DNA of 31,556 bases, taken from a virus. A program made the translations under genes and the position numbers. The notes beneath the pieces were generated by a model, which saw only the letters and a list, made by a program, of their open reading frames with translations, was not told where the DNA came from and did not search any database. This document shows, piece after piece, positions 10,801 to 28,329 of the stretch (position 1 is the stretch's first letter; each line of letters starts with the position of its first letter). The stretch covers positions 1-31,556 of the IMG/VR virus record IMGVR_UViG_3300011113_000401. One strand, given 5' to 3'.

Positions 10801-12803
10801 AAGACCTCGACAAGACAATCGCCGAGCTTGAGAAAAAGGTGAAGGAGCGTGACATCTCCAAACCTGCTACGACGGAAACTCCGATTACTGCGCAGATTCA
10901 AGTCAAGCGGGATCAACGTGACGCTCTTCGTAAGCAGTTGAAGGACATCCGCATTGAGATTGAAGGGGAGCCGTACCTTACTCAGGAGCAGGTCAACGAG
11001 CGTGCTGAACGTAATCTAAGTCGCCAGATCGACGAGCTTCAACGTCAGATTGACGAGAAAGACTTTGAGCAGGCGAAGGGGCAGAAGCCAGAAAATACAT
11101 CCGCCATCATCCGTTTGAAAGCCCGACGCGACACTCTGCGTGAGCAGCGTGACATCCTCAAGGAGCAGACTCTCGGCAAAAAGGTGAAGAGCGAGGCAAA
11201 AAGAATCGACATCGCTGTCAAAGCTTTGGAGAAGTCCATAGACAGCCTAAATGAGCGTATTCGCAAGGGAGATGTCATGCCTCTCAAAAAGCCCGATTTA
11301 GTCGGGCACAACGAGCGTGTCAAAAGTCTTCGGGAGCAGCGGGAAGGGTTTCGTAAAACAGTTCGTGAAATGCGCAAGGCTCAAGAAAACGCCGCTAAAG
11401 ACCCCGAAGCTGAACAGTTAAAAAGGGATAGGCAGTACTTGGAGAGTCAGATTAAAAACTACCAGAAAAAGCTAGCATCCGGTGACTTCCGTCCTAGGCC
11501 GAAAAAAGCTAAAGAATACAGCGATAAATTGGCCGACAAAACTTTGCAGCTTCAAAAGCTGAAAGAGGAATGGGCCGAAAAGGTGTTCATCGCTCAACTC
11601 AACTCCCGAGGCAAAGCAGCCAAAGCCTACGACTTCGGTAAGCAAGTTCTTCACACATCACGGGCGGTCTTAACCAGCTTTGACGTAAGCGCCGTGTTTC
11701 GTCAAGGTGGCTTCATTGCTCTAGGCAACCCTGTTCGTGCTTTCCGCAACCTTAAACCCATGTTTGAATCCTTGGCATCGGCAAAAGCAGCTCAAAGGGC
11801 GAAAGACGAGATTGAAAATAGGACAAACTTCAAGTTGTATAGGCAGTCAAAACTGTATCTAGCCGATTTTAATCAACTCAATTTGAACCAACAGGAAGAG
11901 ACTTTTATGTCTCGTTGGTTGAATAAGATTCCAAAAGTTCTTGGTGGTGGGATCATCCGTGGCTCGCAGAGAGCCTACGTGACCTTCCTTAACCGCATGA
12001 GGGCAGACACTTTTGACGCTATGCTGGCGTCTCTTCAAAAAGGACCAGAGCCTACTACTGAGGAGGTCAACGCGATTGCTAACTACATCAATATCGCTAC
12101 AGGTCGAGGGGATTTAGGTAAGTTTCAACAAGCCGGAGAGGCACTGAATACCGTGTTCTTTGCTCCAAGGCTTGTGGCTAGTCGTTTTCAGATTCTCGGG
12201 GGATACCCTTACTTCAAATCTTCGGGTCGAACCAAAAATCTAGTCCTTCGGGAATACGCCAAGTTCCTTACTGGCGCAGCTCTTGTGTATGCTATTGGTA
12301 TGGCCCTTCAAGACGATGAGGATGAACCCGTCGAGCTTGACCCGCGCTCTAGCGATTTCCTCAAGTTGCGCTACGGAGACACCCGCGTTGACCCGCTTGG
12401 GGGCTTGATTCAGGCGTCCGTTTTGCTGTCACGTTTAGCAACAGGAGAGAAAAAACAGTTATCTGGTAAAGTGGTGCCGATCCGTGACGAATACAGGTTG
12501 CTGAACTTGTTCCGAGAAAGGCCTCGTCGTAACAAAGTAGGATATGGAGCAGATAACACTTTTGACGTTGGGGCTAATTTCCTTCGTTCTAAGTTCTCCC
12601 CTTCGTTTGGCGCGGCTGTTGACTTATTGACAGGAGAAACGGTGGTCGGTGAGAAAACCACGCCTACTGAAGTCGGATACAAGATGGTTATGCCTATCAC
12701 CTTCGGGGAAGCTGCTGAAACTTTAGAGGCTCAAGGTATGTCTAAAGGTGCAGCATTGACCATCATCTCACTGTTTGGTATGGGAGTTCAAACTTACGAT
12801 TAA
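4854..12803 (+). CDS. Giant multidomain polyvalent / internal virion protein
   Basis: This 2649-residue protein is much the largest in the window. In order it shows: an N-terminal beta-like segment (VGDQTYPVQF); a Gly/Ala-rich, weakly hydrophobic region at about residues 62-290, typical of ejected membrane-active phage proteins; and Pro/Ala/Glu linkers with exact repeats. Next come a motif near 1127-1143 (IPLSQRFNPETPDIR) seen in phage polyvalent proteins, and two related helical domains at about 1316-1399 and 1675-1742. A highly charged coiled coil follows at about 1842-2249. The C-terminal domain (about 2262-2649) carries SSDFLKLRYGDTRVDPLGG and a short hydrophobic helix near 2471-2485. That C-terminal pattern recurs in large phage polyvalent proteins (LPD38-like). 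I expect it to be packaged and injected with DNA. No protease, lysozyme or polymerase motif was found. Confidence 0.85.
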   Translation: MPWEVPITVGDQTYPVQFNTEAEPTQADIDEAVSQILRNASTAPGAEEVEDTGQGRFTSALANVGRGALSVIPGAIGGVGYLAEPVIGPGLKNLGEGIESDIESLLPVNPAYQDDFSQKAAGAIGQAGGMLLTGGIAGTLGKGAAVARGLGAAEAAAAGTQVAGRTLLGSGFLSGSREGGQTAEQYGMEGTSAYTRALLGGAVEGATEKLFGLGTELAPVKKFLGDTLEKGVGGLAKMGATEAGEEAVAQGLGNVFTKGLAPEGVETPGIGSGVGEAAALGGVAGLTFGAATGLLPSKETIKPDTEGETITVESGEMPLPEVLRNLNEKVGAAVSANADVLPATKAVLEGLQGGLTDVGEVEGDVRQGLPIRRSIASPGQEGVTDIGTTEGDVLSFVPKKSPAAPPAEPTVATVGPQPTPGGVGSPLVVTDEPQAAAPAIQPVSAAETPVATEPKTPLPKTEKVVAPKAEPEQGAGMTQPLPKRINIAGAEFDVVEANEDGTLKIRNDNGDVFDTSPGEQWTEVVSEPFESELSAKEVVKMSREDFIKWEIDRSVFRKKLAISKAEEAIRSSWKPKKPLPVGVSKVAAFIAKGRYTKEERELLRNYEAAQRMRGAGDVQYIADVKGRVWDTLKAKEKSAPEAPAAPAPAPKAEPEQGAGMTQRDTSKPEQMTPEELFEFEKAQAVLVAEENLRKAKKGEEAPYAYGFKSKAALVRAREDELKAAQEYSRKPDIWGVVIDAKNKQVPVAAELVEGLSNDPREGNGVDSPRKQLIDNLLDNGYVRQGDLYVFAPEAPPTQTKPEDEAKSQAQVKETSRTPSVEGQPSQTRPEVQAQEGAAQRSREGEEGVLTLETAAPGVEPGAAALDAKYLAAVKAGDTAKAQAMVNEAAKKAVKPFKTETKKDPLTSSFSTYVTVGSKTVAVFRDPENGYWYYPDKGGLGDPIASNKTAAIQAAVERIEEEQGGALPSTEVQFRDWRRDVTIVLPGYYLRFGDLPKGGKSAIGNQPGLTEKGVSVLKAWKSSDGVYVISSATAETGASDMVAGMEDRPIYIAYGEDTGEVGSDGEPLLKNVVLTEQVMNNRVVVDDPSYINQPITNNTAEPKDWETIEPSPDPLAAADPVTYDDAGNVIPLSQRFNPETPDIRGGGVTKLQEATPGVEPGAAAEKEAYRRRIGKLLGDDVRKEGTPSRVEMLDEAQKLWATEKEYRFKKLVDLRDNIALLIQTKFDSNPYVSTKLAEKLIEGKPNIVSKIASLEPIRQSEIESIGSRPSALVGLGYERGERGVYRHPKYVTPSVEASKTKKALAERLAGKEPSTTEFGSANTIFTKEKAEEARKTLRRKLGQANIPAFDPELFSAATQYAGFLIEGGVRKFGDFSTRMVSEFGEAVRPFLKGVYNGVRDITALEGMDDAATVDKGLVETPAAPAPAKVQPKEPTEPIETPEQIGIANAVVDLARENLGLPPIERPVQDIYGDDQVWSDAEAAMSAEPDRARYLVKSLIDTPRQASTLETAILLRETVARTARLQQASIELVNATPENKEMARQKYDDAVMSLTEVQEASALAGAEQGRAFRARRFLADLNYSLAVMTTTLQGAHQRKLTDAEVAEVMAESEKINKALKEVNDLKDSAGAVAEEESIFAEAVKEAQAEARLNAKETIRTAKSEIKAGKSVRDVINEKRDAARARLRKRGGSLNVGLNPADLVDYAIIAASYIAEGAVTLKDVTVKMVKEFGAAIEQHMPKIFSEAQVLKSELDNVTVEEPSEAPEKPKGKKPAIEQLREDGEISGRLVYEMVKEKVKSGLTTLDEVFKAITADVQTVVPEITERELRDLFSGYGKVKFPSQEELPKKVRELRRLAQLASAIEDAKNKIAPLRSGPQRDEATLAVREAQKELKRIMKEQGIERAPGPRALKSALDAAKTRLRNQIEELEKQVKERKRAPADKRDIVYDQETKDLIAKRDALQATLEEIDPPQPPTAQELIKKALKDLDKTIAELEKKVKERDISKPATTETPITAQIQVKRDQRDALRKQLKDIRIEIEGEPYLTQEQVNERAERNLSRQIDELQRQIDEKDFEQAKGQKPENTSAIIRLKARRDTLREQRDILKEQTLGKKVKSEAKRIDIAVKALEKSIDSLNERIRKGDVMPLKKPDLVGHNERVKSLREQREGFRKTVREMRKAQENAAKDPEAEQLKRDRQYLESQIKNYQKKLASGDFRPRPKKAKEYSDKLADKTLQLQKLKEEWAEKVFIAQLNSRGKAAKAYDFGKQVLHTSRAVLTSFDVSAVFRQGGFIALGNPVRAFRNLKPMFESLASAKAAQRAKDEIENRTNFKLYRQSKLYLADFNQLNLNQQEETFMSRWLNKIPKVLGGGIIRGSQRAYVTFLNRMRADTFDAMLASLQKGPEPTTEEVNAIANYINIATGRGDLGKFQQAGEALNTVFFAPRLVASRFQILGGYPYFKSSGRTKNLVLREYAKFLTGAALVYAIGMALQDDEDEPVELDPRSSDFLKLRYGDTRVDPLGGLIQASVLLSRLATGEKKQLSGKVVPIRDEYRLLNLFRERPRRNKVGYGADNTFDVGANFLRSKFSPSFGAAVDLLTGETVVGEKTTPTEVGYKMVMPITFGEAAETLEAQGMSKGAALTIISLFGMGVQTYD
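6249..6291 (+). repeat. 43-bp exact direct repeat, copy 1
   Basis: This 43-base stretch inside the giant gene is identical to 6798-6840, 549 bases downstream. It encodes a linker (APKAEPEQGAGMTQ) at residues about 466-479. The period is a multiple of three, so loss or gain by recombination would keep the frame. It is GC-rich compared with the neighbouring domains. Confidence 0.9.
6798..6840 (+). repeat. 43-bp exact direct repeat, copy 2
   Basis: Identical over all 43 bases to 6249-6291. It encodes the same Ala/Pro/Glu linker at residues about 649-662 and ends one segment (residues 480-648) that could behave as an exchangeable cassette. Confidence 0.9.
7419..7445 (+). repeat. 27-bp exact direct repeat, copy 1
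   Basis: Identical to 8316-8342. It encodes PGVEPGAAA in a linker at residues about 856-864 of the giant protein. The spacing of 897 bases is a multiple of three. Confidence 0.85.
8316..8342 (+). repeat. 27-bp exact direct repeat, copy 2
   Basis: Identical to 7419-7445. It encodes the same PGVEPGAAA linker at residues about 1155-1163, immediately after the IPLSQRFNPETPDIR motif. The two copies therefore bracket one approximately 290-residue segment of the protein. Confidence 0.85.
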
Positions 12804-13390
12804 TGAGAAAAATACGCGACAAGGCTCACCCCATTGGGGGCATGTGGACCTACGTTCAGCCTGAAACGGGAGTGAAGCTGCAAGACTGGAATTGGAACGC
12901 TTTTGTAAAGCGTGTGCGGGACCATCGCGAAGCGTGCGGTATCGCTCTACCCCCCGCTTGGGTCGATGAGTTAGAAGAAGCGGTCATTGCAGCCAACCCT
13001 AAAATACCGCACTTTCAGAATAAGACCAACTCGCGTAACTTCACAGGGAACGACGTAAAGAGGTTCATGGCCACCATGAAAGAGCTACGTTATGGTCGGG
13101 AACTAGTACCTGAAGAAGAACATCGTCGTCGTGTCGATATATGCGCAACGTGCCCAAAACTGGGTCAAATTAGCTGCGGTGGGTGTGGATGGCTAGCCGC
13201 TCAGATCACGGAAGTTATGGCTGGCAGAAAAGTGCCGAGAGCGGATGTCGTTTACCGAAAATCCTGCTTAGCTTGTGGGTGTGACGTATCGTCCAAAGCC
13301 GCTATACCTTTAGACGTGCTCAAGCGCGTTGACGATAAACTGGGTATTACTCCAGATTACGTTCCAGGTTGTTGGATGATTGAGGACTGA
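12803..13390 (+). CDS. Cysteine-rich putative zinc-binding protein
   Basis: This 195-residue protein is coupled to the giant gene by a TAATG overlap. Residues 1-65 contain many aromatics (MWTYVQPETG, DWNWNAF). The C-terminal third has eight cysteines at 114, 117, 125, 128, 155, 158, 160 and 190, arranged as CxxC pairs (CATC, CGGC, CLACGC). This looks like one or two zinc ribbons; small phage proteins with comparable CxxC ribbons are common but mostly uncharacterised. It is the last gene of the late block and overlaps the convergent gene by 34 bases. Role unknown; a nucleic-acid or assembly partner is plausible. Confidence 0.75.
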   Translation: MRKIRDKAHPIGGMWTYVQPETGVKLQDWNWNAFVKRVRDHREACGIALPPAWVDELEEAVIAANPKIPHFQNKTNSRNFTGNDVKRFMATMKELRYGRELVPEEEHRRRVDICATCPKLGQISCGGCGWLAAQITEVMAGRKVPRADVVYRKSCLACGCDVSSKAAIPLDVLKRVDDKLGITPDYVPGCWMIED

Positions 13391-13596
13391 CTTTCTCGGC
13401 GGACCCCTACACTCAAAGATAGCTCGTCGTTGGATACCTCAATGCCGTATATGAGCTTACCTACCCCAGGAATGGGTTCTAAGTCGTTGAGTAAGTTCTG
13501 GACAGCTTTGACAGTCTTTTCCTCGACTTCGCGATCACGACGAAGGCGAGCTTGAGTTTGAGGAGAGGTTTGAAGGTCTTTAAGGAACTGGTGCAT
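13357..13596 (-). CDS. Small protein of unknown function
   Basis: This 79-residue gene is the last of the minus-strand block. It begins inside the end of the upstream gene (17-base overlap) and its last 34 bases overlap the end of the convergent zinc-protein gene. The N-terminal half is helical and charged (RLRRDREVEEKTVKAVQNLL); the rest may be beta (IYGIEVSNDELSLSVGV). No family recognised. Coupling to the upstream gene supports it. Confidence 0.55.
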   Translation of the reverse strand: MHQFLKDLQTSPQTQARLRRDREVEEKTVKAVQNLLNDLEPIPGVGKLIYGIEVSNDELSLSVGVRRESQSSIIQQPGT

Positions 13597-15037
13597 TTAA
13601 GTCTGATAGGTAACGGATAGTGCCCTGGCTATTCTCTGCATAGCCTATTTTTCTCAACTCTTGGCGGACAACATCCAAGGGTCCGATTTTCACCGTCGCA
13701 GCAATCGTCCGAATGCCGAGGGGGAATTTATGTGCTCTGAAAAAACGGATAGCTTCGCGCAGCCTATCTCCAGGAGCGACTAAATTTTTCAAGTTTAGAG
13801 GAGCGATCCGAGGCTTTTTAGGTTTAGGCCCCCTCTTCTTTGGCTTGGGCTTCGGGCCTTTTCGCCTTTTCCGGCCTTTAGGCTTGGCCTTTTTACGGCG
13901 CTTCGGCATCTTCCGTTTCTTCTTATCCTTGCTACCTGGGGGTCTTCCAATCCGTTTTCTAGGTGGTTGCTCTTCTGAGCTTTTTTCTAAAATCGGTGCA
14001 GGCGCATGGACATGAGCAACGGCAGGTTTAGGGGCAGGAAGTTCAGCAGGTAACTCCCAAGGGTCTATGACTGTAGGCGGTGTCAGCTCTACGACAGGAG
14101 CAGGAGGAGGTGTCAGCTCTACGACAGGAGCAGGAGGAGGTGTCAGCTCTACGACAGGAGCAGGAGGAGGTGTCAGCTCTACGACAGGAGCAGGAGGAGG
14201 TGTCAGCTCTACGACAGGAGCAGGAGGTGGTGCTACGATCCGAGGCTTCGGTGTAAGGGCGTCAAGGACTAGACGGTGAAGGGATTCGTCTTTGCAACCA
14301 TGCACCAAAACTGTTTCTGGAGGTATAACGCCTCCGTTGGCTGTTGGGTAGTCTGCGTGCGCGTCACAATGTAAAACCCCTCCTTGGTATCGGTAGTTAC
14401 AAGTTCCCCAGCGATCAAAGGTAAGCGTTGTTGCGTGAACGCCTTTTTTGAAGAACTGCCAACGGCAATACACGTCCCACGGGTAAGCTGCATGGGCTTT
14501 TTCATTCTCTATGGACAAGTTGCGGAGCAGCGGGATCAACGCTGGATTCTTGTACATGTGGGGAGGATAGATCGTTCCCCCACCCATGAGCATGTTGTCG
14601 TTCGGCTTGGTGAAGTGCGAACCATCAGGCCTTTTGTGCAGCGTCGGGCGAACGAACCCAAAGTAAGGCTGCCCAGATGCCTCGTAGGCGTTCTCCAACG
14701 TGTCAGACCAACCTTTAACAAGGGGGCAGCAGTCAGCTTCAAGCCATAGAAAAGCGTCGTTCGACCCCGATACTTCCAAGTGCTCAACGACCCAATGGAA
14801 CATACGGTTTGGTCCTCTGAACCAACCGTGGAAGAAGTTTTCTTCCGTGTTCAGTAGTTCTACCGAGGCACAAGCCTTTTTAAGGGTGTTGGCTACTTCA
14901 GATGCCTCTTCAGACAAAGCGGGTGCGTGGACAAGCAGCACTTTCTGCTGAACGATGCTAAGTTTGGATATAACCTTCGCCAACAGCTTGATCTGCGGAG
15001 TATCTTTGGGTGATCCGAACGGTATGACGATGATCAT
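13580..15037 (-). CDS. GT-A-like glycosyltransferase fused to repeat linker and basic AT-hook tail
   Basis: This 485-residue protein has three parts. Residues 1 to about 265 look like a GT-A-fold glycosyltransferase: a beta start (MIIVIPFGSP), FLWLEADCCPL as a DxD-like metal site, then GGGTIYPP and a late AAYPWDVYCR. Residues about 270-320 are five tandem copies of a 10-residue unit (PPAPVVELTP). Residues about 359-412 are extremely basic: 29 of 49 are Lys or Arg, beginning with an AT-hook core (IGRPPGSKDKK) and resembling histone H1 tails. The last 70 residues (LREAIRFFRAHKFPLG, IRTIAATVKI) look like a small winged-helix domain. Its ATG overlaps the stop of the upstream glycosyltransferase gene. 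The enzyme class is a fair inference; the acceptor is unknown, and the tail suggests DNA contact. Confidence 0.7.
   Translation of the reverse strand: MIIVIPFGSPKDTPQIKLLAKVISKLSIVQQKVLLVHAPALSEEASEVANTLKKACASVELLNTEENFFHGWFRGPNRMFHWVVEHLEVSGSNDAFLWLEADCCPLVKGWSDTLENAYEASGQPYFGFVRPTLHKRPDGSHFTKPNDNMLMGGGTIYPPHMYKNPALIPLLRNLSIENEKAHAAYPWDVYCRWQFFKKGVHATTLTFDRWGTCNYRYQGGVLHCDAHADYPTANGGVIPPETVLVHGCKDESLHRLVLDALTPKPRIVAPPPAPVVELTPPPAPVVELTPPPAPVVELTPPPAPVVELTPPPAPVVELTPPTVIDPWELPAELPAPKPAVAHVHAPAPILEKSSEEQPPRKRIGRPPGSKDKKKRKMPKRRKKAKPKGRKRRKGPKPKPKKRGPKPKKPRIAPLNLKNLVAPGDRLREAIRFFRAHKFPLGIRTIAATVKIGPLDVVRQELRKIGYAENSQGTIRYLSDLNAPVP
14079..14228 (-). repeat. Five tandem 30-bp coding repeats
   Basis: Five head-to-tail 30-base units start at 14079, 14109, 14139, 14169 and 14199. 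They are identical except the final base of the last unit. They encode five 10-residue Pro/Ala/Val units in the linker of the glycosyltransferase-like protein. Near identity at the DNA level points to recent expansion by slippage or recombination. Confidence 0.95.
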
Positions 15038-16020
15038 TTTGCGGCTTGAATAGCTTTAAGCACTCGGTCGTAAATAGCCCCCACGTTGTCTTTGAAATAA
15101 TCGGGAAGCCGTTCGCAGTTAAACTGATACACAGCTTGACGTGCTTCAGGTACCTTACATCCAACTTCTCGGGCTACTATTTGCGCCAAGGCGTTAATGT
15201 CGTTTTGCGTTTTGTATCCAGGGTATTGCCACTGACCAGGAGGGCAACACATCCAGTCATCTTTGCGAAACTTAATATCTTTCGTAAATTCGACTCTCTT
15301 ACGTTTACCAACGGCTGGCAAATAATCTAATCTCCCGTCGTAGCAGATTTGACCTCCGTTGGGGAAAATGCAGTCAGGCACTCGCAAATTACATTCAAGG
15401 ATGCGTGGGTGCTTGAGGCCTTCAGCTATGGCATAAGGGCTTGATTGGTTGCCAACGAATAGCTCGGAACCAGCGATCAACTCGGCCAACTCCAATAAGT
15501 CTTTCACAGGTCTGTGTTCAACGCGTCCGAATTTCTTGCTGAAGTCCTCATGCTCTTCAGGCAGGCCCACGAAAAGCACGCTCTGGCCGTAGTGATTCAG
15601 CACCGTCTTCCAAGGGAACAGGTCGTTATGGTATCGCGGGCTACGAGCAATCACAACGCGCCCCTTGGTCTCTTTGGCCTTATTGACGAACAGCCAGGGT
15701 GTATCTCCTTTGACGATAGGTAGCCCGTATTTCTTTTTCCCGTGAGCACACTGACTGGCCAACAGACTTTGCGTCGGCTTATAGTCTGGCCTAAACGTAG
15801 ATAAGTCTAAAGGAGCGGATTCTTCTGTCAGCGTAACCTCTTGTATGTAAGGCTGCGCGGATAACAGGGGCTCAAAGACATGATAGCGAGAACTTATCTT
15901 CTTCGTCCACGGGCGGTCGTATAGAGACAGGCGTGTTTTCTCAAAAGATTGTAACAGAGGGAGTAAGTAAATGACATCCCCGAAGTCTCCTGAAGAACCG
16001 AAGTGTTTTTCTACATTCAT
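15034..16020 (-). CDS. GT-B (family 9/heptosyltransferase-like) glycosyltransferase
   Basis: I choose the ATG at 16020, which forms a TGATG overlap with the methyltransferase stop; a GTG one codon earlier is possible. The 328-residue protein begins with a loop typical of GT-B enzymes (HFGSSGDFGDVIYLLPLL). In its second half it has VVIARSPRYHNDLFPW and FVGNQSSPYAIAEGLKHPRILE-type elements. There a nucleotide-sugar donor site is expected, as in ADP-heptose:LPS heptosyltransferase relatives. It sits between a methyltransferase and a GT-A-like protein. The likely role is transfer of a sugar to a host surface glycan, a virion protein or DNA; the sequence does not say which. Confidence 0.75.
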   Translation of the reverse strand: MNVEKHFGSSGDFGDVIYLLPLLQSFEKTRLSLYDRPWTKKISSRYHVFEPLLSAQPYIQEVTLTEESAPLDLSTFRPDYKPTQSLLASQCAHGKKKYGLPIVKGDTPWLFVNKAKETKGRVVIARSPRYHNDLFPWKTVLNHYGQSVLFVGLPEEHEDFSKKFGRVEHRPVKDLLELAELIAGSELFVGNQSSPYAIAEGLKHPRILECNLRVPDCIFPNGGQICYDGRLDYLPAVGKRKRVEFTKDIKFRKDDWMCCPPGQWQYPGYKTQNDINALAQIVAREVGCKVPEARQAVYQFNCERLPDYFKDNVGAIYDRVLKAIQAAK

Positions 16021-16592
16021 CACGCTTTGAAATAAATGAAAGTTACCTGAGCCTGTGCTTTACCGAGGGTTTGGTCAAAACGCTTATCCCACACCCTCGT
16101 CAGATCGTAATTGTCGATCTCGATGCGTGCGTCTTCCAAAGTTAGACCGCACTCAAGACCTATACGTCGCATATCTCGGAAGCTATAAAAGTTGTGGTCG
16201 GGGCGAACAGGCGGGTCAATCAAATCAAAGCTAGCTTTGTGGTCGCCGTTGTATCGAGAAGGCCATTGATACTTTTCATAGAAAAGCCAAGAGGGGACGT
16301 AGATCAAAAGGTAGCCGCCTGTCTTGAGAACTCTCGCCCAGTTTTTTAGGGACGTGCGTACGCAGTGCATGTGCTCTAGGCAGTGGCTAGACACCACGGC
16401 GTCAAATGAATCGTCTTTTAAGGTGCCTAGGTATTGGGCATCTCCATCTTTCAAATCCCACCCCGTAACGGTGGCTGGCGGAGGCAGCTTGATAGGGTCG
16501 GGTCCGCAGCCGATGTCGAGGACTTCTCCTCTAAGAAAGCGATAGTCGCCGTTACGCAGGCGGGCATTATGTGATTTGGATTGTTCGTTCAT
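16020..16592 (-). CDS. SAM-dependent class I methyltransferase
   Basis: I place the start at the ATG at 16592, just downstream of the terminase stop; a longer frame would run well into the terminase gene. The 190-residue protein has SAM motif I at residues about 24-30 (VLDIGCGPDP). An acidic residue follows in GWDLKDGDA, then DSFDAVVSSHCLEHM (motif IV type) and LKTGGYLLIYVPS. This is the methyltransferase type 11 pattern, commonly acting on small molecules, sugars or lipids rather than DNA bases. No DNA-methylase NPPY or PCQ motif is present. The GT-B start overlaps its stop by one base, suggesting joint action in glycan decoration. Confidence 0.8.
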   Translation of the reverse strand: MNEQSKSHNARLRNGDYRFLRGEVLDIGCGPDPIKLPPPATVTGWDLKDGDAQYLGTLKDDSFDAVVSSHCLEHMHCVRTSLKNWARVLKTGGYLLIYVPSWLFYEKYQWPSRYNGDHKASFDLIDPPVRPDHNFYSFRDMRRIGLECGLTLEDARIEIDNYDLTRVWDKRFDQTLGKAQAQVTFIYFKA

Positions 16593-16605: not shown

Positions 16606-18513
16606 TTAGAATATGTTCGGTGCGCTGTCAAAGCCTTCTCCCCAAGAACTTTGTTGTCCAGCATAAAAGTCCTCGGCGACGGTAAAGTGTTTTCGGAAAT
16701 CAGGTTTCTTGGGTTTCTCAATTTCAGAAAACCAGTCAAAAGGATCGGCTTTTTTTGGTGCTGGCGCTAAAGCTCTAGCTGCCGCCGTGAACTTAAACCT
16801 TCTGCGGGCGATCTCTATCAAGCCCACCCAGGAGTCTGCTCGGTCAGGACTACGCCCACCGGTGCGTTTTTTCATATCCGACTTGGGTTCTACATACACC
16901 TTGTTCCCAATCTCTTTGTAAGTCCTTTCGCACATCTCCCGCATGGTTGCAGGGTCTAGGCCTCGAATCTGTCCCCCTGCTACAAACTCTTTTCCGACAT
17001 ACCAAAGCTCAGAAACTCGGTTTCCGAACCTGTCTTTCCCTTTACGCTTGTCTGTCGCACTAACCACCATATCCGAAGCTGCTCCGGCAAAGCTGACTAG
17101 CTGGAAACCGTGACCCATCTTCATGGCTAAGATCGTGGCAAAAGGGTCTCCTCCCCCTGTGGCATCGACGCCTCGGTCGTGGATGGCTACTCCTCGCCTT
17201 TCGCACTCCGCGATAAACAGTTCGGCAAGCTGCTCATTGCGATCTTTGGTCTTATGCTGGGCTTCTACACGCAGCATCAGGTCAATAGTTTCGTCCTTCT
17301 CAAGGACTTGAATCGTTCGCCCGTTGATTTGGGCTTCACCGATAAACCCAAAGCTAGCCGCAGCAGCGTCACCACCTTTTGAGAAAGAAGGGTCGAGGAA
17401 AGCTATAGGGGTCGGCCTACGTAACCACGGCGTTTCCTTTTTCCCACATAGCCTGCTCACTAGCTCCGGCTCGGAGTAGATGGTGTCAATCGCTCCCGAG
17501 GGACACGGGAAGGACTTAACCATTCGGTAGAACCCAGGTGAACGCTCGCCGAACTTGGCGCGTATTTCGTCCAAACCTGTTTGGGTAAGCAATCCTTTGT
17601 AGAGTTCGCGTCCAGCGATGACGTTTGGCGACTTCTCTCCATCAAACCTGATGCAGTAGCCGCCGATGCGCGTGCGCCACTCCATATCGTCCTCTGTGAT
17701 GCTGTCCCAGCCATTCTCAGGCTCGGTGAACAACCCAAAAGGATCAAATACCGAGGTCAAGTTGCCGGTCGCTAGCATCTGGAAACCGTCGTTAGACAAG
17801 AGGTTCGTAGCCGCGTCGTAAAGCTTGTGAGTTAGCAGAGGAAGCTCGTCAGCCACCAAGATCAGTTTTCCTGCCTTGAAACCGATCTTAGTTGAAGCGT
17901 CACCGTCATTACCTTTACCCCCAGCAATAAGGGCGAGGCCTGTGAGATCATCCGCTTTGCCTGTAATGATTCCGGTGATCTTACCTGAAGACGAGACTAG
18001 CTTTCCTGGCAATCCTCCCATAGGAGCGAAAAAAGCTTCAGCTTCTCCCCAATACTTCTCCACTACCCCCCAGATACGCATCCTCGACTCTTGGAGGGAG
18101 GTTGAAGTGATGAGTATTTTAGTGTTTTCAGGGTCGATCAAGAAGTTGGCTATAGCCCAGACAGCTCCAAACTGCGACTTGCCGCTCGACGCGTGTCCCG
18201 ATACTCCCAAGAAACGGTGATGCCTAACGTGGTCAAGGATACGCTCGGCGTAGGGGTTCCAAGTGAAACGGTATTTCGTGTTCGGATTATCCCAGATGAT
18301 TGAGACGAACACTTTGAAATGCTCCTCCCAAGACATGAGTTTATTACCTGGGACTGCGATGTAAGTCTCGTAATTACGAAGAATGTCTTTCTCAATTAGA
18401 ACATCAGGCTTGGCGGCAACGGGGTTTCCTTTCACGTCCAAAACAGGACGGAACGTAAGGCCGTATTTGACCTTCTTGAATTTGTCGAAAAGCTGCTGTT
18501 GCCGTGGGTTCAT
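16606..18513 (-). CDS. terL: Terminase large subunit
   Basis: The ATG at 18513 lies just after the upstream stop; a TTG two codons earlier is an alternative. The 635-residue protein has ATPase Walker A at about 106-113 (GHASSGKS) and Walker B at about 217-223 (LILVADE). The C-terminal nuclease carries FLDPSF (Asp near 374), VDATGGGD (Asp near 450) and SPDRADS (Asp near 557 and 560). These are the expected metal ligands of a TerL RNase H-like nuclease. It pumps DNA into the capsid and cuts concatemers. It is unusual that it closes a replication-gene series and is on the opposite strand from the virion genes. No small terminase was recognised. Confidence 0.95.
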   Translation of the reverse strand: MNPRQQQLFDKFKKVKYGLTFRPVLDVKGNPVAAKPDVLIEKDILRNYETYIAVPGNKLMSWEEHFKVFVSIIWDNPNTKYRFTWNPYAERILDHVRHHRFLGVSGHASSGKSQFGAVWAIANFLIDPENTKILITSTSLQESRMRIWGVVEKYWGEAEAFFAPMGGLPGKLVSSSGKITGIITGKADDLTGLALIAGGKGNDGDASTKIGFKAGKLILVADELPLLTHKLYDAATNLLSNDGFQMLATGNLTSVFDPFGLFTEPENGWDSITEDDMEWRTRIGGYCIRFDGEKSPNVIAGRELYKGLLTQTGLDEIRAKFGERSPGFYRMVKSFPCPSGAIDTIYSEPELVSRLCGKKETPWLRRPTPIAFLDPSFSKGGDAAAASFGFIGEAQINGRTIQVLEKDETIDLMLRVEAQHKTKDRNEQLAELFIAECERRGVAIHDRGVDATGGGDPFATILAMKMGHGFQLVSFAGAASDMVVSATDKRKGKDRFGNRVSELWYVGKEFVAGGQIRGLDPATMREMCERTYKEIGNKVYVEPKSDMKKRTGGRSPDRADSWVGLIEIARRRFKFTAAARALAPAPKKADPFDWFSEIEKPKKPDFRKHFTVAEDFYAGQQSSWGEGFDSAPNIF

Positions 18514-18515
18514 AT

Positions 18516-19070
18516 TCAATCGGGTACTCCTGGACCGCGAATATACTTGATAGGCCTATCGTCGATCAAATTTTTGCACGATTTAGCATCCATCAAGATG
18601 TTGCATCCAGCCGCAATGTGCGCGAGATGTGACCGCCCGCTTTCAGGATCAATGTCTTCGCCTTGTTGCCAAGCCATCAAATGGCGCATGATAGCCGAGA
18701 CATAAGTGCTCGCATTGACTTTGTTTTGTCGCCAGTTGTAGCGACCATATTTTTCAGCTCCAAGGCCGTGAACCCAAGCCGTTTCAATAAGGGCTGTGGC
18801 AGGCAAAAGTTCCATAGGAGCTTTGGTTTTTCCAGTTTCGCCTTTAGGGTCAGAGACTTGATCAACTTGAGGAGTGAAAACTACATGAGGGTCCCATGGG
18901 TTGGAGACTCGATCAACTTGAGGAGTGAAAACTACATGAGGGTCCCATGGGTCGGAGACTCGATCAACTTGAGGAGTGAAAACTACATGAGGGTCCCGTG
19001 ACTCGTATAGTGCTATGGTTTGGCTGCTGGCTGAGAAGTTATTGTTTTCCATAGATTCAAAACGGTTCAT
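18516..19070 (-). CDS. DUF5664 (dATP/dGTP diphosphohydrolase N-terminal-like) protein with repeat region
   Basis: I prefer the ATG at 19070 (preceded by AGAGAAG); a start nine codons earlier at 19097 is possible. The 184-residue protein has an N-terminal region with three 17-residue repeats (DPHVVFTPQVDRVSDPW type). The DUF5664 domain follows from about residue 85: GLGAEKYGRYNWR, then YVSAIMRHLMAWQQGEDIDP and SHLAHIAAGCNILM. This domain is linked to all-alpha nucleotide pyrophosphohydrolases and, in known phages, to dATP/dGTP diphosphohydrolase. The His and Asp/Glu set (RHL, GEDIDPES, HLAH) fits a metal-dependent active site. It may alter nucleotide pools. Its position just before terminase is unusual for that job. 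Confidence 0.8.
   Translation of the reverse strand: MNRFESMENNNFSASSQTIALYESRDPHVVFTPQVDRVSDPWDPHVVFTPQVDRVSNPWDPHVVFTPQVDQVSDPKGETGKTKAPMELLPATALIETAWVHGLGAEKYGRYNWRQNKVNASTYVSAIMRHLMAWQQGEDIDPESGRSHLAHIAAGCNILMDAKSCKNLIDDRPIKYIRGPGVPD
18853..19000 (-). repeat. Three tandem 51-bp coding repeats
   Basis: Units start at 18853, 18904 and 18955 with a 51-base period, the third incomplete. They are nearly identical in sequence and encode three 17-residue units at the N-terminus of the DUF5664 protein. The copies differ at only a few positions, so the expansion is recent. Confidence 0.95.
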
Positions 19071-19341
19071 TTTCTTCTCTTTTCTGAAAAGCGGCAAACT
19101 CTATTTTCGACTTCTTGATGTGGCATCTTCGGCAAAGTATCTGAAGATTACATTCTTTGTGCTGCCTGCGGTAGAACGTCGTCCTTTTGACGTACCCGAG
19201 CGCATGATGGTGATGACCTTGCGGTATGATGCAGTCGAACTCAAGTTCTTTGGTTGATCCGCACTCACGGCAGCACCCACCAAGTTCAAACGTCAGCCTG
19301 AACCTTGCATTCCTTGCCCAAGTGTAAGGGTTCTGCGGCAT
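19057..19341 (-). CDS. HNH endonuclease-like protein
   Basis: This 94-residue gene begins two bases after the SNF2 stop and its end overlaps the next start. It has a CxxC zinc pair (CRECG), a treble-clef core (ELEFDCIIPQGHHHH), then FYRRQHKECNLQILCRRCH with a second CxxC. This is the HNH layout, except that the usual Asp-His is Asp-Cys here. The nearby HHHH run might provide the general base. Phage HNH proteins next to terminase genes can be required for packaging; others are homing nucleases. Only the DUF5664 gene separates this one from terL. Confidence 0.8.
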   Translation of the reverse strand: MPQNPYTWARNARFRLTFELGGCCRECGSTKELEFDCIIPQGHHHHALGYVKRTTFYRRQHKECNLQILCRRCHIKKSKIEFAAFQKREENEPF

Positions 19342-25433: not shown

Positions 25434-26369
25434 TTAAATCCATTCTCCTTCTTCTAATATAATTTTTTCATTTATCCTATCAGCCTCTTCAGTGCCTATC
25501 TCGCACGATTCGCCACAACCAGAGTTCAAATCCATGTCGTAGTCTTTTATTTGAAACCCATCTACAAACTCTTCAAAAGGTAACTGACTTTCTTGAAGTA
25601 GCTCTTTTGTGCTTTTGTGTTTTCGGAAAAATAGCCTGTGCCCATTAGGACTTCCTGTAGCAGGGCTTACTTTCAAAAGACTGTACGCTCTTTCCATGCG
25701 TGCAGGGAATTTGAAATACTCGGGGTTGTGTTTGGCTACTGTCAGAAGTTTACGCCACGATTTTTTCCAACACCAAACGCAGTTACCATAATGCTCTCCA
25801 GGTATTTCAAGGTCAAAACCCCATGAGCGTACTTCTTGAACAACTTTTTCTTTGGTATAGCCAAGGCGAACTAAAGGGTATGCGTATTTATTTTTGTCTG
25901 CGTTTACACTGCACCGATCTATCTCATCTGCGCGAATACCTATCGCTGTTTCGTAAGAATTTTTGTCCCACGCTTTTTGTTTTCTCAAAAAATGGTGTAT
26001 AGGGTCTTCTTTTAGCCTGCCGGTGCATTGCGGTGTAGCCATGTTGGGTATCCCGTATTTAGCTATGTATTCTCGAAAAGGGCGACCATCCCTAGAAGCA
26101 GAAACAAAATCTACCACTCTATGCTTTACGCCCTTTCCATGTGTCATATCCACTTCAGCCTCTACCCATACGACGTTAAGAGAAAACTCACGGTCACAAC
26201 GATCAACAAACTCCAAAGTTGCCTCATGTTCTTGTCCTGTGTTAGCGAATACAACGCATATTTCTTTACTATCCCGATAAAGTTCGACGAGAATTTTTGA
26301 CATGACGGCAGAGGTTCTTCCGCCTGAAAAGCTTATAGCAATACGGTCGCTTTTAATTAAATCGTTCAT
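25434..26369 (-). CDS. PP-loop PAPS-reductase-like enzyme
   Basis: I choose the ATG at 26369, which overlaps the DUF2800 stop as TAATG; a TTG nine bases earlier is an alternative. The 311-residue protein has the PP-loop SGGRTS at residues 15-20 after a beta strand, as in PAPS reductases and adenine nucleotide alpha hydrolases. It also has VFANTGQEHEATLEFV, PQCTGRLKEDPI, IGIRADEIDR and a CVWCWKKS pair near residue 200, with later CGESCEIG. These enzymes adenylate or reduce sulfur compounds, and phage members are often linked to nucleic-acid modification. The redox ECGLH motif of true assimilatory PAPS reductases is not seen. The substrate is unknown. Confidence 0.82.
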   Translation of the reverse strand: MNDLIKSDRIAISFSGGRTSAVMSKILVELYRDSKEICVVFANTGQEHEATLEFVDRCDREFSLNVVWVEAEVDMTHGKGVKHRVVDFVSASRDGRPFREYIAKYGIPNMATPQCTGRLKEDPIHHFLRKQKAWDKNSYETAIGIRADEIDRCSVNADKNKYAYPLVRLGYTKEKVVQEVRSWGFDLEIPGEHYGNCVWCWKKSWRKLLTVAKHNPEYFKFPARMERAYSLLKVSPATGSPNGHRLFFRKHKSTKELLQESQLPFEEFVDGFQIKDYDMDLNSGCGESCEIGTEEADRINEKIILEEGEWI

Positions 26370-27544
26370 TAAATCCAATCCTCCAGGGTTTCATCATCAA
26401 ACACATCAACAGGGTTTGTAATTTTATACTCGGGGCGAGGGTCGTCAATGCCTACCAAAATAGGTTTACCCTCCGGCTTAACGGTCATTTTAAGAAGAGC
26501 TGCCCACTGCTCTTTGCTGAAGTCGAACTCAAACTCTTCAGCTTGTTTAGGGGTAATAAGTTTCTCGGCGATAAAGTCCTCTCGTTTCAAGACTTTAGCC
26601 ATAGCTTCTTTGACAGACTGTTCATCCCTCCATTTGCGATGTCCTCCTTTGGATTGAACGATCTTCGTCCCTGGCAATGCTTTGCCGAAAGCCGCCATCT
26701 GCATGGCGTATTCTTCGACCTTATTCAGCCACTTACTGATCTCACCCGATCTGGCGATGATCTTAGCTAGGTGCTCTTCAGCTACAATCTCTGGTTTTTC
26801 TAGCACAGGCTCTTCGCCTTTAATTAAAGGTTCAAGGGGCGTGTCATCCAAAAGCCAAGAGGCCCTAGCGGTGCAAAAAGTGCTAGCAGGGCAGAACTGA
26901 CATGTTTTCTCTCCAGGGCTAAATTTACGTTTGGCCGACGGCGTTAGAATGTCTTTAGCTGGTCCTAACACCCGGTCGTCGGTAAACTGCACTAATTCAC
27001 CCCAAGTAAGGGACCAAGTGCTCCTACGTTCTCCTTGTCTGACGCGGGGCTGATCAATGTGCAGGTGAACCTGTGCATCGTCTTTTGGTATCTTGCCTAG
27101 TTGCTTGACGGCGCTGCGGGCGTAGATGGACATCTGTAGATTTTCAAAAGCTGACACCGACACGCCTTGCCCGTATTTGTAATCAACGATGTGGATCGTT
27201 TCGGCAATGCTGCACCAATCGACATACCCTGAACGCCCTGGCATGTAGAATAGGTCAACTTTCAACTCTGATTTCCAAGGTGTGCTAGCCGTGGCGCGAA
27301 GGCTGTGACAGTAGTCCACGAAAGCCGCCCCATGCTTCTGCATCGAAGCATCGGCATAGGGCGGCAGTTTTTCCCCTTTGAACAGACACTCAACAACCTT
27401 GTGCGCTTTAGTTCCTTCGACGCTGAACTCAGTGTCCTGCGGAGGAATGCGGTGGGCGTTTTGTAGGACGTAGTGTGGCTGCGCCGTGCATTCAGTCCAC
27501 GTATGGGCTGCACTGGCGTTAAGATTCAAACGGGGGGTTTTCAT
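26369..27544 (-). CDS. DUF2800 RecB-like PD-(D/E)XK nuclease
   Basis: A 391-residue protein. The N-terminal CTAQPHYVLQ and EGTKAH (residues 43-48) are followed by SELKVD near 92-97, GYVDW near 106-110 and the catalytic IHIVDYKYG near 118-125. This is a RecB-type PD-(D/E)XK fold. A CQFCPASTFC cluster (Cys 215, 218, 224) with Cys19 could hold an iron-sulfur cluster, as in AddB/Cas4-type nucleases. DUF2800 proteins are fixed partners of DUF2815 and family A polymerase in phages and probably act as exonucleases in recombination-dependent replication. No clear Shine-Dalgarno sequence precedes the ATG. Confidence 0.93.
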   Translation of the reverse strand: MKTPRLNLNASAAHTWTECTAQPHYVLQNAHRIPPQDTEFSVEGTKAHKVVECLFKGEKLPPYADASMQKHGAAFVDYCHSLRATASTPWKSELKVDLFYMPGRSGYVDWCSIAETIHIVDYKYGQGVSVSAFENLQMSIYARSAVKQLGKIPKDDAQVHLHIDQPRVRQGERRSTWSLTWGELVQFTDDRVLGPAKDILTPSAKRKFSPGEKTCQFCPASTFCTARASWLLDDTPLEPLIKGEEPVLEKPEIVAEEHLAKIIARSGEISKWLNKVEEYAMQMAAFGKALPGTKIVQSKGGHRKWRDEQSVKEAMAKVLKREDFIAEKLITPKQAEEFEFDFSKEQWAALLKMTVKPEGKPILVGIDDPRPEYKITNPVDVFDDETLEDWI

Positions 27545-27558
27545 GGAATCAAGGGGTA

Positions 27559-28293
27559 TTAGATTTCGCTTTCACGACGAGCGAGTTCTTCGGCCAGTTC
27601 GTCGATCTTCTCGTTGAACTGATACAGCATCGCTTGATCCGTCATTTTGGAGACTGGCTGTGTCCAGCCAAGGGTGTTGTTGCGGAAATCGACAAGCTTC
27701 GCCCGGATTTCAGAGCGGATAGGTGTGTCTCCGCCGAGAATCTGGCTGGCCTTGCTAGCTAGCTCTGCTCCCGTGAGTTCTGGAAACGCAGGAGCAGCAG
27801 GCTCAACTTCGACCACGGGCTCAGGGGTTTCGACAACGGGTTCTGGCGTGACCACGGCTTCCTCGGATGCAGCCTTCCGACCACGCTTTTTAGGAGCAGG
27901 CGTTGGGTTTGTGTCTTCAACGGTTGAAGAGGTAGCGGTTTCTGTGAGCTGCCCGACCCTCTCAGCAGCGGTTGTGGGTGACAGAACGGCTGTTAGCTTA
28001 TTGATAGCCTCAGCGAGTTGGGCAAACTCTGGGATGTTAATGACTACTTGCATGGTGTGTATCGTGTTTGTTTTTGGTTTTTCTGCCGGTTTAACCGGGA
28101 AATTCTGGTGCGGACAAGCCGCGTTGAAAGCGTCGAGAAAAGGCTGACCGTTGGTGGTGGCAATGTGCAAAAGGAAGTCCTCGCTGCCTGAGTGCTTTTG
28201 CCTATCAAAACCGTTAGTTATGTTGTGCCAATCCCAGCGATGCTGTGATAAGCACTTCTTGTAAAAGTCGATGGTGAACTCAGAAGGACTCAT
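27559..28293 (-). CDS. Unknown protein with AT-hook-like motif and Pro-rich linker
   Basis: I start at the ATG at 28293 (244 residues); a TTG at 28323 would add ten. Residues 1-75 are a compact mixed region (FTIDFYKKCLSQHRWDWHN). A helix-like segment follows (MQVVINIPEFAQLAEAINKL), itself beginning with an ATG at 28053, so a second internal start is conceivable. Then come KKRGRKAASEE, an AT-hook-like core, and a Pro/Val/Glu linker (TPEPVVETPEPVVEVEP). The C-terminal helices include RSEIRAKLVDFRNNTLG. No family recognised; a DNA-binding accessory factor between primase and DUF2800 is a reasonable guess. Confidence 0.7.
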   Translation of the reverse strand: MSPSEFTIDFYKKCLSQHRWDWHNITNGFDRQKHSGSEDFLLHIATTNGQPFLDAFNAACPHQNFPVKPAEKPKTNTIHTMQVVINIPEFAQLAEAINKLTAVLSPTTAAERVGQLTETATSSTVEDTNPTPAPKKRGRKAASEEAVVTPEPVVETPEPVVEVEPAAPAFPELTGAELASKASQILGGDTPIRSEIRAKLVDFRNNTLGWTQPVSKMTDQAMLYQFNEKIDELAEELARRESEI

Positions 28294-28329
28294 GTATTCA
28301 ATATCTGTTTTCAGAAACTTCAAGGGTTT

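Follow-up and report, generated by a model that had tools for sequence, protein, structure and literature searches.

A predicted GT-A glycosyltransferase with an AT-hook and putative winged-helix tail, encoded in a TerL-linked gene cassette of uncultured phages

The 485-aa protein encoded at 13580-15037 of the DNA studied here, a viral stretch of 31,556 nucleotides (the window), is a member of an unnamed family that is in no Pfam, PHROGs or NCBIfam entry and is absent from isolate phages. Tentatively, we favour the reading that it is a metal-dependent GT-A glycosyltransferase (GT) of a phage glycan cassette, which would add sugar most likely to a virion protein and which carries an accessory, probably nucleic-acid-binding, tail. 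Features of the window lie on its minus strand unless stated otherwise. The ORF is open across its full length, and an independent contig (L002) carries a 99%-identical copy of the protein; the best segment of L003 shows 46% identity. At least 96 relatives are present on viral contigs, 80 of which were fetched. No relative of the GT was confirmed on bacterial or archaeal genome contigs, and the INPHARED isolate phages contained no relative of the GT core, the tail, the GT-B partner or the terminase large subunit (TerL). Because any viral record may be a fragment, as the window itself is, absences in viral records are provisional. A 79-aa ORF (13357-13596, coordinates derived from the spacing in L002) overlaps the GT gene at its 3' end; the arrangement is identical in L002, and L003 has a similar ORF.

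The GT-A-type N-terminal domain claimed in the first-pass annotation was borne out at the level of structure prediction. Residues 1-262 (14252-15037) were modelled by AlphaFold2, with 35 family members as alignment, at a pLDDT of 95.6 and a pTM of 0.92. A Foldseek search of the PDB with this model returned 360 matches with E ≤ 0.001, headed by GT6 ABO transferases and by the GT8 enzymes glycogenin, XXYLT1 and LARGE1 (E 5e-7 to 6e-6, TM 0.4-0.58) and including the GT domain of LH3, and a search of BFVD returned phage glycosyltransferases. These matches support a predicted GT-A glycosyltransferase fold of GT6/GT8-like type. Profile searches against GT families, which had been proposed earlier as a check on this domain, gave no credible match in Pfam and NCBIfam (35 members) or in PHROGs (proteins of the window and of L003/L005), and searches with the sequences of the GT-A, the GT-B and a second GT-A of the cassette against solved structures found nothing credible. 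Like the GT6 and GT8 enzymes, the phage protein has an acidic motif in the DxD position and a C-terminal His-Gly-x-Lys; unlike them it has E-x-D and not D-x-D, shares only 9-15% identity and has no Pfam or NCBIfam match. In GT-A enzymes the DxD is placed after the fourth strand. The E100-x-D102 motif (14732-14740), invariant in the 35 aligned members with Glu in place of the first Asp, directly follows strand 96-98, which is the fourth strand of the Rossmann-like half of the model. The last core strand carries LVHGCKD (residues 244-250, 14288-14308), and E100, D102, W110, H246, G247, C248 and D250 were invariant in 35/35 members. By analogy with GT-A/GT8 enzymes, we take H246 to be the candidate metal- or nucleotide-binding His. 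The putative donor site is thus assigned from fold and motif, with no sequence match to a named GT family, and the protein is presumably catalytically active.

The GT-A domain is followed by a long and unusual tail, much of which had been described correctly at first reading. Five exact copies of the decapeptide PPAPVVELTP (residues 271-320, 14078-14227) are encoded by a 30-bp tandem repeat with 98% match and form what appears to be a flexible linker; the linker varies among relatives, and that of L002 has one inserted Pro. The AT-hook core RKRIGRPPGSK (residues 360-370, 13928-13960), identified by sequence as a GRP core with basic flanks, opens a polybasic stretch of 49 residues (360-408, 13814-13960), as the first-pass annotation had stated; the stretch is real and far above background, although the number of Lys/Arg residues is 30 and not 29. 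Residues 358-417 have a net charge of +31. With a Lys/Arg background of 13% in the window's proteins, the binomial p for 30/49 is ~7e-14, which rules out a chance origin of the stretch, and the richest 49-residue segment among the other proteins taken has 15 Lys/Arg. The DNA of the tract contains no tandem repeat and its Lys/Arg codons are mixed, so the polybasic tract is a protein-level composition. GRPxGSK is kept in L003/L007 and L004 (63% GT-domain identity), with the surrounding Pro linker rewritten. In the comparison of L003 with L004, codon differences in the 56-codon Pro linker were non-synonymous in 8 cases and synonymous in 10, against 1 and 4, respectively, in the 34 codons of the AT-hook/basic part. 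We know of no AT-hook or winged-helix tails on GT6/GT8 enzymes, and a literature search for a phage GT with either element found no paper, in support of the earlier view that this is a non-standard architecture for a sugar transferase. A second AT-hook-like sequence of the window, the basic motif KKRGRK, is found together with a Pro-rich middle in a 254-aa protein at 27559-28323.

The C-terminal ~56 residues were modelled by AlphaFold2 as H-S-H-H-S-S (block pLDDT 85-89), and with moderate confidence residues ~422-477 (13607-13774) are predicted to be a winged helix, in agreement with the winged-helix-like C-terminus first suggested. The PDB matches of this model by Foldseek, none of them with E ≤ 0.001, were mostly winged helices (IclR, DtxR, Z-alpha, SAMD1 and O-methyltransferase domains). 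A winged-helix profile, A4, which includes the window's own sequence, matched 13613-13774 with E 1.9e-16. With this profile, 13/13 near-clade records gave a single match each, in every case at the C-terminus of the GT protein, and 0/8 far-clade records gave any. Near-clade winged helices show 13-24% identity to that of the window and follow linkers of unrelated sequence. The GT-core tree requires one change for the winged helix and two for the AT-hook; the near clade as a whole owes its winged helix to one acquisition, and the AT-hook with its polybasic tract is a late addition in three lineages. The AT-hook is present in the window/L002, L004 and L007 and absent, together with the basic tract, in the nested L008, the GT of which is 63% identical. 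In the far clade (15 distinct rows) the protein ends soon after the GT core without a tail domain, and most of the clade keeps the gene cassette despite this. The absence of the AT-hook and basic tract in L008, a close homologue, is one of two joint observations that the first-pass annotation had named as speaking against its reading. As the far clade has neither winged helix nor AT-hook, the shared function of the family is independent of DNA binding.

The gene order TerL, methyltransferase, second GT-A, GT-B, GT gene and Cys-rich protein recurs across the family, with some members missing genes; the window is without the second GT-A. TerL (16606-18519; phrog_2, E 3e-10) adjoins the cassette in most relatives. 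It is followed in the window by two conserved neighbours of the GT gene, a class I SAM methyltransferase (16020-16592; Methyltransf_11, E 1.2e-11) and, in most relatives, a GT-B-like and possibly GT9-like partner (15034-16023). The partner has an invariant D12, G14-D15 and GNQS motif, and Pfam Glyco_transf_9 (PF01075), the profile for GT9 heptosyltransferases, matched weakly, with E 0.2, in 1/19 GT-B members. On the plus strand, and convergent with the GT gene, a conserved neighbour encoding a Cys-rich 195-aa protein (12803-13390; phrog_13558, E 5e-6) travels with the cassette. The second GT-A is homologous to the GT-A described here (hhalign 99.2%, E 2e-19) and is fused to the GT-B in one polypeptide in L004 (4168-5718), L008, L017 and L021. 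Near-clade GT genes are mostly found in the replication/TerL operon, away from head genes. Far-clade GT genes directly precede a portal-like gene, with an ATGA overlap in 40/48 measured loci, followed by scaffold-like and capsid-like genes; these three names were given from gene order, and family searches gave no match for them. On the other side of TerL in the window, a 193-aa protein with a PF18909 dATP/dGTP diphosphohydrolase-type domain (18516-19097) contains, upstream of this domain, three 51-bp tandem repeats (18847-18997) with a 17-residue unit (DPHVVFTPQVDRVS.PW). The replication operon also encodes a PAPS-reductase-like protein (25434-26378; phrog_424, E 3e-49).

Further glycan-related genes were found in relatives. 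In G001 the cluster also encodes a methyltransferase of FkbM type (E 1e-16) and a transferase of GT_PLOD type (E 2e-27), the latter also found in G003, and among the fibre-like genes of G001 there is a weak match to GT2 (E 1.6e-4, just below the cut-off). Near its GT genes, G020 encodes Gly-X-Thr collagen-like tail-fibre proteins (L084:18151-20000 and L085:2293-3849) with ~60% Thr in the Y position; no collagen-like protein was found in the window. The methyltransferases including FkbM, the several GTs including GT_PLOD and the adjacency to head genes together argue for machinery that acts on a protein or surface glycan. The G020 fibres and the GT_PLOD of G001 and G003 recall collagen-type glycosylation, which involves Gly-X-Thr proteins of BclA type and GT domains of PLOD type, and the methyltransferase of the cassette adds to the likeness; however, the fibres and GT_PLOD were found in relatives of the window's phage, and by profile comparison GT_PLOD was not detectably homologous to the GT-A. 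Membership of the GT-A in GT_PLOD was rejected, as no profile matched. To our knowledge, no nucleic-acid-binding tail has been reported for the virion-glycosylation enzymes of mycobacteriophages, which resemble the present system in having several GTs per phage genome. These enzymes put sugars on capsid and tail proteins, according to Freeman et al. 2023 as cited in PMC12619734 and PMC10955285.

In the reading that we tentatively favour, the SAM methyltransferase, the GT-B and the GT-A, with the second GT-A in most relatives, would together make a methylated glycan. The GT-A would transfer sugar from a nucleotide-sugar to the glycan on a virion protein, either a fibre or a head component, late in infection, a virion protein being the probable acceptor. 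The winged helix would have been acquired once in the clade and attached by a fast-evolving Pro-rich linker, and a subclade would then have added the AT-hook and polybasic tract to it. Such a tail would be an accessory module and not the acceptor-binding part; most likely it binds nucleic acid and may tether the enzyme to phage DNA or to the packaging/assembly site, but so basic a tail might just as well bind to RNA, to LPS or to membranes.

This last point leads to a related explanation, which we consider unlikely but worth weighing, namely that a protein or surface GT carries the winged helix as an oligomerisation or protein-docking domain and the polybasic tail binds polyanions (LPS, membrane, RNA) and not DNA. 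O-methyltransferases have an N-terminal winged helix that serves in oligomerisation or protein docking, and the Foldseek matches comprise O-methyltransferase as well as DNA-binding winged helices. In addition to being poorly conserved, the domain is weakly charged in many members (net charge -1 to +6), and because of this we can only infer nucleic-acid binding by the winged helix in general. A weak IF2_N match, below the Pfam cut-off, and the independent basic tail of L031/L032, which lack a winged helix, also fit this explanation. However, GRPxGSK persists amid a changing linker, and generic polybasic binding needs no such core.

It is improbable that the protein is a DNA glycosyltransferase. 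On that view it would be recruited to phage DNA through its AT-hook and winged helix and, together with its partner enzymes, would assemble a (methylated) glycan on a modified base as a defence against restriction. The DNA-binding-like tail is kept in the clade, the gene adjoins TerL and replication genes, and diverse phage DNA glycans have been reported (Pyle et al. 2024, as cited in PMC13216743 and PMC12619734). C5-cytosine methyltransferases were present in 7/27 records, including the 99% relative L002, and the far-clade G020 encodes a homologue of TAGT (L083:3764-4588; PF20691, E 7e-44) near a Glycos_transf_1 gene. In T2/T6, enzymes of the TAGT family attach a second glucose where cytosine is already glucosylated (PMC13216743). 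DNA glycosylation may therefore occur somewhere in the lineage, given this homologue, but the tail of the GT gene does not track it. TAGT was found in only 1/23 records, and G020 itself had no detectable dCMP/dUMP hydroxymethylase of the thymidylate-synthase (TS) type. TS-type hydroxymethylase (PF00303) was found in 0/26 related records and QueC in 0/21, the positive control being detected in both searches; Tet_JBP (PF12851) was likewise found in 0/26 records, but its control was equally silent. Neither the window as a whole nor the 35 GT members searched against Pfam gave a match to PF20691, and hhalign of the GT-A with the G020 TAGT gave E 0.56, on which grounds TAGT membership of the GT-A was rejected. 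Like T4 AGT/BGT and T2/T6 TAGT, the GT is phage-encoded and soluble, and one distant relative has TAGT in its genome; unlike them, the GT-A has no sequence match, the T-even hydroxymethylase route is absent and the family can do without the tail. DNA is thus probably not the acceptor, which the first-pass annotation had drawn from the DNA-binding tail: the AT-hook is missing in L008, the tail-less far clade keeps the cassette, and the searches for TS-type hydroxymethylase and QueC were negative. The C5-cytosine DNA methyltransferase of L002 (1160-1963; PF00145) lies between SNF2 and HNH genes, and the window is without it.

Still more doubtful is the proposal that, in a large uncultured phage lineage, a DNA-tethered GT equips virion DNA with a methylated glycan of several sugars by a base-activation route other than the TS type. 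It is very improbable that the protein is bifunctional, both enzyme and regulator, with a tail that recognises a promoter or packaging site of the phage in the manner of an autorepressor or of a small terminase that partners TerL. The gene lies directly downstream of the TerL/methyltransferase block, and winged helices gave weak PHROG matches with a family of repressors (E 0.0075) and, for one member, with one of small terminases (E 4e-4 to 0.003), but the winged-helix surface is poorly conserved, and a small-terminase role was set aside because G020 has a separate small terminase (Terminase_2, E 8e-6) and the far clade is without the domain.

These results delineate an unnamed family of glycosyltransferases and, linked to TerL, a glycan cassette that is widespread in uncultured phages, in which a domain of nucleic-acid-binding type has been fixed onto one enzyme of the cassette. 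We know of no standard example of a DNA-tethered sugar transferase, and this is what the enzyme would be if its tail binds DNA.
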